From positions 186,001-250,000 of the forward strand of contig CAKJVC010000128.1 in NCBI GenBank assembly GCA_918026815.1: a DNA stretch of 64,000 nt. The letters run 5' to 3'. A program made the translations under genes and the position numbers. A model generated the notes under the pieces. It was not told the DNA's origin, did not search any database, and saw only the letters and a program-made list of their open reading frames with translations. Source of the stretch: Chalara sp. BL73. Taxonomy: Eukaryota > Ascomycota > Leotiomycetes > Helotiales. Positions 8,855 to 9,848 of the stretch are shown here, one piece after another; within the stretch, counting starts at the first letter, position 1; each line of letters starts with the position of its first letter.

Positions 8855-9674
8855 TAAGGAGCTACAGCGTTGCAGTGAATGTGGAGAATTGACGCTTTAA
8901 ATGAGTCAGAGCATGGAGTCCAAGGAAGTAGCCGTATGATCAAACAGGATGGTTAGACGTATTTCTCACTTTTCAGCTCTAGGCAATTACCTATCGTATA
9001 TCACGTGACATATGGTTGACTCAACCGGCGAGATTGTGAAGGAACATGACAAGCTCGAAAGATGAGTCTTAATGGATCCCGAGCTCAATAATCGAAACGG
9101 GGCTAAACAAGACGGGATTTCAGTCAATAGGCTATTAGACTGTTGAAAAGCTCAGACTAGTCCATGGGAGGCGGCTTGACCAAGTTCATGACACGTGATC
9201 AGCTTGTTGTTTTGGGCTTCTTAACTGGCTGGGTTAGAAAGGCTCTAGGGAGGCCAAGCCACCCAAAATTATTCAAAGTGTGTGCTCAGGATGGCATTAT
9301 CAGGCATTGTTACTTTGTCTGTCTAGAATCGTTATGACCTAGATCCAAAGTCACCCAGAATTTGGATGCAAATTGGGAGTTAGGTGGGGCTATGGGTGTC
9401 AGGAATGCACCGATTTTCAGATTTGAGGGCTGAAGTAGTATGAAAGAAGAGATGTGACTTATCAACCGACACATGATGTGTATGTACAGAACAGAAGACA
9501 GGGAGCAAAGCTTAAAGTATTATTGAAAGGTACAGCTGTGCCATCGAAGGATACTCACCTAGAAGTCGCCCCCACAACCTGACACCATTAGCGAATTGTA
9601 TTTTGGGGCACCGAACTGGATAATTCTGTCTAAAATGATCTTTCTTATGCGCGACCTTTGAACAAATCATGATT
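8855..9674. other. Intergenic region / promoter side of the 1268-aa gene
   Basis: No gene is visible. A perfect TCACGTGA palindrome lies about 210 bp upstream of the start at 8788, and another CACGTG core lies near 9191. Confidence 0.5.
9001..9008. promoter_or_regulatory. TCACGTGA E-box-like palindrome
   Basis: A perfect 8-bp palindrome with a CACGTG core lies upstream of the reverse-strand gene starting at 8788. In yeasts and moulds this core is bound by bHLH factors of the Cbf1 type. Regulation is inferred from motif and position only. Confidence 0.3.
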
Positions 9675-9711
9675 GGCAACTTGGCCGAGCGGTTATGGCG
9701 CCAGTTTCAGG

Positions 9712-9729
9712 TAAACCTGATACAGAAAT
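9712..9729 (+). other. Canonical tRNA intron after anticodon position 37
   Basis: This 18-nt insert lies one base 3' of the anticodon, the standard site for nuclear tRNA introns removed by the tRNA splicing endonuclease. Its internal CCTGA complements TCAGG of the anticodon loop, giving the usual anticodon-intron pairing. Confidence 0.75.
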
Positions 9730-9752
9730 TACTGGTTCGAAAGAGCGAGGGT

Positions 9753-9805
9753 GTGAGTGCAACACAGTGCAATTATCTTTAGGCATTTAGCTAATCATTC
9801 AATAG
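9753..9805 (+). other. Spliceosomal-type GT-AG intron inside the tRNA T-loop
   Basis: This 53-bp insert begins GTGAGT, has GCTAATC about 10 nt before its end and finishes AATAG. These are the donor, branch and acceptor signals of mRNA introns in neighbouring genes, and the size is the same. Exact removal joins GGT to TCGAATCC, restoring a consensus B box and a 7-nt T-loop on a perfect 5-bp stem. It is not at the site recognised by tRNA endonuclease. Confidence 0.75.
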
Positions 9806-9835
9806 TCGAATCCCTCAGTTGTCACAATCCATGTC

Positions 9836-9848
9836 TTTTTTTTTTTTT
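9836..9848 (+). terminator. T13 run, RNA polymerase III terminator
   Basis: Thirteen consecutive T residues start 11 nt after the tRNA 3' end. This is the expected Pol III termination signal, kept next to a gene whose internal promoter is interrupted. Confidence 0.7.

Follow-up and report, generated by a model that had tools for sequence, protein, structure and literature searches.

The stretch of DNA analysed here, referred to below as the window, covers 64,000 nucleotides of a contig (C114; C-numbers denote contigs) of the helotialean fungus Chalara sp. BL73, whose assembly comprises 58.66 Mb in 199 contigs. On its forward strand, at 9675-9824, lies a tRNA-Leu(CAG) gene, read from the sequence, that is interrupted twice, and the second interruption has the appearance of a spliceosomal intron. 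Exon 1 (9675..9711) supplies the 5′ strand of the acceptor stem, the D arm, the 5′ strand of the anticodon stem and, beyond the anticodon CAG at 9708-9710, G37. A canonical tRNA intron of 18 nt follows between positions 37 and 38 (9712..9729), and by eye its CCTG could pair with CAGG of the anticodon loop. Exon 2 (9730..9752) runs from position 38 through the 3′ strand of the anticodon stem, an 11-nt variable arm and the 5′ strand of the T stem, GAGGG, to T54. The spliceosome-type intron, 53 nt long, then separates T-loop positions 54 and 55 (9753..9805); it opens with the donor GTGAGT (9753-9758), contains a branch-like CTAAT within GCTAATC (9791-9795) and closes with the acceptor TAG within AATAG (9803-9805), its last base lying 11 nt beyond the presumed branch A. 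Exon 3 (9806..9824) provides the remaining T-loop bases TCGAAT, the 3′ strands of the T and acceptor stems and the discriminator A73. Upstream, at -12, stands a CAA (9663..9665), which we take to be a start-site-like motif of fungal RNA polymerase III (Pol III) genes, and a run of 13 T resembling a Pol III terminator begins 12 nt past the gene (9836..9848).

The first-pass annotation had described a tRNA-Leu(CAG) cloverleaf with two interruptions, and its coordinates, borders and motifs are all correct for this sequence. Its further proposal, that excising 9753-9805 restores the T arm, holds as well: without either intron the gene reads GGCAACT-TG-GCCG-AGCGGTTA-TGGC-G-CCAGT-TTCAGGT-ACTGG-TTCGAAAGAGC-GAGGG-TTCGAAT-CCCTC-AGTTGTC-A, in which all stems pair (counting G-T pairs) to give a long-variable-arm cloverleaf of good quality, and the exon join expected after removal of the insert is GAGGGT|TCGAATCCC. 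The borders cannot slide by even one base, because a T precedes an insert that ends in G, and the insert begins with G and is followed by T. Once the canonical intron is out, excision of these 53 nt is the single best of 2119 excisions scored without regard to GT-AG. Standard tools stumble over the gene in its genomic form, with Infernal scoring it at 27.0 bits for RF00005, below the cut-off of 29, ARAGORN finding no tRNA in it, and plain scans of the whole window, for tRNAs and for Rfam families, coming back empty. When the insert is removed ARAGORN does call a tRNA, but misplaces the anticodon intron and misnames the tRNA. Chance is excluded as the cause of the insert mainly because 15 further loci carry others like it.

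In all, at least 16 nuclear tRNA loci of this genome, the window gene among them, carry 20 GT-AG inserts away from the 37/38 site; a hand count puts the nuclear tRNA loci free of them at 57 (35 from the Rfam list and 22 from other searches), so that 16/73 of the loci read are interrupted. This census is incomplete and favours genes whose B box is intact and which are followed by a T-run. The Rfam tRNA family gave 63 genome matches at E ≤10 (63 of 2453 first-look candidates were scored), of which 42 are nuclear by contig reading. Patterns requiring an intact B box and a T-run gave at least 175 matches against 77 in a reversed control, on the contigs listed to C115, and in a second version with its full list 87 against 22; a D-arm pattern gave 15 against 8 in its control, and a chained tRNA query of exact exons was also used. 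We read 20 + 20 pattern-match regions, picked for a tRNA-like 3′ end. Inserts first turned up in the Rfam list, in a Lys-CTT and a Lys-TTT gene that each have an uninterrupted paralogue, and a second interrupted Lys-CTT gene was found later. Eleven of the 16 interrupted loci were found by patterns requiring TTTTT.

Single inserts are present in the window Leu-CAG gene, in Lys-CTT on C62 and C122 (both at 57/58), Lys-TTT on C121, Gln-TTG on C1 and C86, Leu-TAA on C82, Arg-CCG on C60, Pro-TGG on C139, Arg-TCT on C170, an initiator Met gene on C86, and Ser-TGA (C121:221.9k, L108; 78 nt) and Ser-CGA (C127:526.5k, L109; 53 nt), the last two at 30/31 in the anticodon stem. Two inserts occur in each of the Pro-CGG genes on C75 and C51, and Pro-AGG on C143 has three plus one canonical intron, its middle insert being, at 175 nt, the longest found. 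Numbered by hand, the inserts occupy 16 positions: 9/10, 10/11, 13/14, 14/15, 15/16, 20/21, 20a/21, 21/22, 22/23, 29/30, 30/31, 33/34, 46/47, 49/50, 54/55 and 57/58. The expected joins include GGTGT|AATGG in Gln-UUG and GGCCGA|GTTGG in Leu-UAA. The Pro-CGG and Pro-AGG genes (C75, C51 and C143; L103, L106 and L116) have inserts that differ in position by a single base, at 10/11 or 9/10, and those on C51 and C143 also have a second insert near 20-23, which may be old shared introns that have slid or repeated gains at one spot. The Ser-TGA and Ser-CGA inserts, at an identical site, do not look alike, and the Ser-TGA gene on C9 has no insert.

Some loci were left out or need comment. C57 (a copy of C62, 99.4% over 3.9 kb) and C187 (the same tRNA as on C51) were omitted as redundant, as were, by eye, C84 (redundant with C55) and the end of C134 (with C82); further redundancy among the 57 is possible. 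The doubled contigs C57/C62, C51/C187, C55/C84 and C82/C134 end, together with C115, point to uncollapsed copies, and the differences of C57 are gaps only. C115 looks mitochondrial, and the tRNAs of C188, C189 and C192 look to us like land-plant plastid genes, both labels being our assumption; the DNA probably came along with plant material. A Leu-CAA gene (C129:990.8k, L046) has 95 nt in its anticodon region with a TGTGACT direct repeat and possibly a hidden GT-AG intron, GTATGG...TTAG; being ambiguous, it was counted as lacking an insert. A Val- or Glu-like gene with a long anticodon-loop hairpin (C62:908.6k, L102) was counted as canonical. Two candidates were rejected: one that resembles the 3′ part of a tRNA gene and whose 5′ part was not found (C170:108.8k, L120), and a D-arm match with a poor ARAGORN tRNA and no Rfam match (C134:116399, L047). 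No search found intact Asp, Asn, Phe or Tyr tRNA genes, only an Asp-like relic on C112 (24 bits); these genes may be interrupted or simply missed. Canonical anticodon-loop introns are common in this genome and occur in Gly, Glu, His, Met and Gln genes, among others; loci that have them include Gly-GCC on C8, C9, C60 and C62, His on C113, Glu on C30, C44 and C55, and Leu-AAG on C9, C63 and C185. The exons of the four Gly-GCC copies look identical, and their anticodon-loop introns differ freely.

The inserts resemble the mRNA introns of the same genome in borders, donor, branch-like site and length. All 20 start with GT and end with AG on the sense strand, with TAG acceptors in 12, CAG in 7 and AAG in 1. 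Our comparison set was nine introns from two protein genes of the window, IMPDH and GH38, which alignment with proteins had located; two further junctions, of eleven in all, could not be resolved and were left out. A GTRNG donor is present in 18/20 tRNA inserts and 7/9 mRNA introns. A CTRAY element is present 6-45 nt upstream of the 3′ end in 17/20 inserts, at 10-12 nt in 15 of these 17, and in 8/9 mRNA introns; in 2000 rounds of shuffling the inserts gave a mean of 4.0 CTRAY matches and a maximum of 12, never reaching 17. Eighteen inserts are 48-60 nt long and the others 78 and 175, while seven of the nine mRNA introns measure 49-58 nt and the others 94 and 186.

The position of these borders can be judged by the cloverleaf alone. 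For each insert we scored all single excisions of suitable length (2119 per insert) with a simple cloverleaf score of our own that is blind to GT-AG, other inserts and any canonical intron of the gene having been removed first. In 14/20 inserts no excision scored above the GT-AG one, the ties at the top comprising 1 to 195 excisions and being wide in three (195, 37 and 29). In the other six (Lys-TTT, Gln-TTG on C1, Leu-TAA, the first of Pro-CGG on C75, the second of Pro-CGG on C51 and the second of Pro-AGG), 1, 1, 3, 1, 9 and 42 excisions, respectively, score higher. GT-AG makes up ≤1.5% of all excisions of one gene, and in control genes with canonical introns it was among the best excisions in 0/12, counting a Glu-TTC control that was cut short and scored badly and was retained. 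For four gene types the borders are fixed independently, because paralogues without the insert exist: Lys-CTT on C141, Lys-TTT on C49 and Pro-TGG on C5 and C180 hold the spliced sequence exactly, and the uninterrupted Ser-TGA on C9 differs from spliced Ser-TGA at 2/81 exon positions.

Since interrupted genes might simply be dead, the strongest competing explanation is that these are tRNA pseudogenes broken by insertions and still intact by chance or recent age. According to a 2014 review (PMC4090602), insertions in the D or T arms of eukaryotic tRNA genes mostly affect a single copy among many and are regarded as marking pseudogenes; in this fungus uninterrupted copies exist for four types and internal promoter boxes are split in many loci. 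Against this, all 16 spliced sequences score high as cloverleafs, whereas the tRNA-like relics on C55, C112 and C136 score low (22.9-28.6 bits) without any insert. ARAGORN found a tRNA in 14/14 spliced genes given to it, with the right anticodon in 10; of the unspliced forms it called 7/14, each with a wrong anticodon. The three Lys-CTT loci (C62, C122 and C141; L079, L126 and L083) have identical exons (73/73), yet the introns of C62 and C122 agree at only 39/50 positions, giving 0/73 exon against 11/50 intron differences (Fisher p = 2.4e-5), the pattern expected if selection acts on the tRNA and not on the intron. Several tRNAs were found at interrupted loci only, within the limits of the searches. 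No second Leu-CAG gene came from DNA searches that used the whole gene or its spliced form, or from a pattern specific for the anticodon, and an exact-exon query yielded no uninterrupted Gln-TTG, Leu-TAA, Arg-CCG, Arg-TCT, Ser-CGA or Pro-AGG gene, this query having also missed two known interrupted loci. By ordinary decoding rules, CAA, UUA and AGA codons are unreadable by the C34 partner tRNAs; in two coding stretches of the window CAA occurs 65 times, TTA 19 times and AGA 24 times. Finally, random insertion would not yield a sense GT-AG intron with a branch-like site every time. We therefore regard pseudogenes as an unlikely explanation. The first-pass annotation had left it between a live tRNA gene with an mRNA-type intron and a gene killed by the insertion, and the 15 other loci with like inserts, their mRNA-intron signals and their intact exons favour the live gene. 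It had also taken the perfect stems as a sign of recent origin or function; the evidence speaks for function, while a recent origin of this copy is not shown.

If the genes are alive, their inserts could still be non-canonical tRNA introns cut by the tRNA endonuclease at bulge-helix-bulge (BHB) motifs, as in archaea and Cyanidioschyzon. Many intron positions and several introns per gene have been described for such systems (PMC4090602), and this fungus does have many canonical anticodon-loop introns. Those canonical introns show GT-AG in none of the 12 controls, whereas the inserts do so in 20/20 cases, mostly with donor and branch consensus, none of which the endonuclease needs. A BHB-like central helix of 4 bp is possible in 4/20 inserts, compared with 21.7% of shuffled introns, in what is a crude test. 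Endonuclease cleavage thus appears very unlikely. Self-splicing was considered too and rejected: group I and group II introns have a catalytic core of more than about 200 nt, and the inserts are only 48-78 nt long, with one of 175, and match no such Rfam family at the window locus or at 13 other loci.

A further proposal concerns the origin of the inserts and not their function, namely that a mobile, intron-making family of introners was copied into tRNA genes. Introners do generate introns in bursts, and fungi are known to have introner-like elements (PMC4457414, PMC9860276). The inserts are not clearly alike beyond the paralogous Lys-CTT pair, however, the next best pair (<90 nt) reaching z 4.0 against 20 shuffles; target-site duplications and terminal inverted repeats were not seen by eye; and a query with the 150-bp window gene found no second copy of its insert in the genome. 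A family of this kind appears very unlikely. An assembly or sequencing artefact, for which one could cite redundant contigs with homopolymer differences (C57 against C62), is practically negligible, as like and precise inserts recur at 16 loci on contigs of up to 2.2 Mb, the redundant C57 and C187 repeat them, and the window contig bears helotialean protein genes. These belong to the HET, RasGAP/IQ/CH, IMPDH, GH38 and GH5 families, all fungal; the best-scoring named relative is Calycina marina for IMPDH (93%, with Cadophora and Leptodontidium at 93-94%) and Bisporella sp. PMI_857 for GH38 (88%, the next match 64%), and both Calycina and Bisporella are Helotiales.

The flanks of the interrupted genes bear on how they are transcribed. 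A run of at least 4 T starts within 38 nt of the gene end at 16/16 loci and a CAA lies within 20 nt upstream at 15/16 (no background rate was computed), which weakly suggests Pol III genes. TATA-like words occur within 80 nt upstream at only 7/16 loci, and the inserts have no T-run avoidance that would speak for Pol III, reaching 5 T at most compared with 4 in the nine mRNA introns. The first-pass annotation had raised, as one option, that the window gene depends on RNA polymerase II; this is unsupported, and the T-runs and CAA motifs are explained more simply by transcription by Pol III followed by spliceosomal splicing, on the model of fungal U6 and U3.

Taken together, we consider that the window tRNA-Leu(CAG) gene is probably a functional nuclear gene whose 53-nt insert is a spliceosomal intron of the U2 type, and that at least 16 tRNA genes carry such introns; its Pol III transcript would be processed by both splicing systems. 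From the sequence we place this reading at a probability of about 0.84. A pre-tRNA would be made most likely by Pol III, the spliceosome would take out the 53-nt intron and so restore the T arm, and removal of the 18-nt anticodon-loop intron would fall to the endonuclease and ligase of tRNA splicing; this one small RNA would then need both systems. The introns were probably gained by reverse splicing, a route that would account for precise insertion with no target-site duplication and for the fact that 20/20 lie in sense orientation. That orientation would also be favoured by selection for splicing; the entry by reverse splicing that the first-pass annotation proposed thus fits the data, which show no target-site duplication, and falls short of proof.

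Several observations weigh against this account. Three of the 20 inserts have no CTRAY match. The contrast between Lys-CTT exons and introns is drawn from a single pair, and the three copies also agree throughout 32 nt of their 3′ flank, which could reflect a conserved flank or gene conversion. The T-runs are independent support at five loci only, because the patterns that led to the other 11 had demanded one. In the window Leu-CAG gene and in Lys-CTT the insert splits the B box, in several others the A-box region, and split internal promoter boxes should weaken Pol III transcription, which may then lean on upstream elements. A Leu-UAG gene on C149 could also read CUG, so that the window gene need not be essential. 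The argument from sole copies is provisional, because gene copies can escape the searches: the exact-exon query missed Gln-TTG on C1 and Pro-AGG on C143, known otherwise, and the Rfam search missed the uninterrupted initiator Met on C11, Gly-CCC on C27 and Ala-TGC on C146. With this in mind, it is still reasonably likely that translation in this fungus depends on the spliceosome, as the only Gln(UUG), Leu(UAA), Arg(UCU) and Pro(AGG) genes found are interrupted, that some pre-tRNAs need both splicing systems, and that tRNA genes gained introns repeatedly.

Standard teaching assigns the introns of nuclear tRNAs to the tRNA endonuclease and keeps spliceosomal introns for mRNA. If our interpretation is true, tRNA is to be added to U6, U3 and rRNA among the RNAs that host spliceosomal introns, the spliceosome copes with very short exons in a small folded transcript, and mRNA splicing is linked to the decoding of particular codons. 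The genes would also offer a clean test of intron gain, with short exons, fully known structure and both filled and empty paralogues. Standard tRNA finders miss or misname genes interrupted in this way. A report of spliceosomal introns in tRNA genes was not among the matches listed in the open-licence full-text literature, and the text of PMC4090602 has no word beginning with "spliceosom".

Comparison with known systems places these genes among several that share some of their features. Fungal introners and introner-like elements are likewise a source of new spliceosomal introns, but no sequence family is seen here beyond one paralogous pair. Non-canonical tRNA introns of eukaryotes are called rare in PMC4090602, which names nucleomorphs and Cyanidioschyzon. 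The introns of archaea, nucleomorphs and Cyanidioschyzon merolae resemble those of this fungus in lying at positions other than 37/38, several to a gene, and 20/21, 22/23, 29/30 and 30/31 are positions in common with archaea. The archaeal and C. merolae introns are associated with BHB motifs and cleavage by the tRNA endonuclease, and those of the Guillardia nucleomorph, of 3-24 nt, are removed in a way left unexplained (PMC4090602); the present inserts, in contrast, are GT-AG, mostly 48-60 nt, have a branch-like site and show no BHB excess. Nuclear rRNA genes of ascomycetes, especially of lichens, also contain spliceosomal introns (Bhattacharya et al. 2000, cited in PMC8527467), and yeast splices those of lichens out of Pol I transcripts (PMC8527467). 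These too are ectopic mRNA-type introns in non-coding RNA genes, although rRNA is long and made by Pol I, whereas the hosts here are tRNA genes with a 5′ exon down to 9 nt. A further parallel is with U6 of fission yeast and U3 of several fungi, Pol III transcripts that are substrates of the spliceosome (PMC10484740, PMC5832005); the U6 introns are thought to stem from reverse splicing (PMC10484740), and the U3 introns are termed normal spliceosomal introns (PMC5832005). Both cases share with this fungus the presence of GT-AG introns in small structured Pol III RNAs, but here the hosts are tRNAs, at least 16 genes are involved, a single gene can hold as many as three of these introns, and a canonical tRNA intron is present in several of the genes as well.
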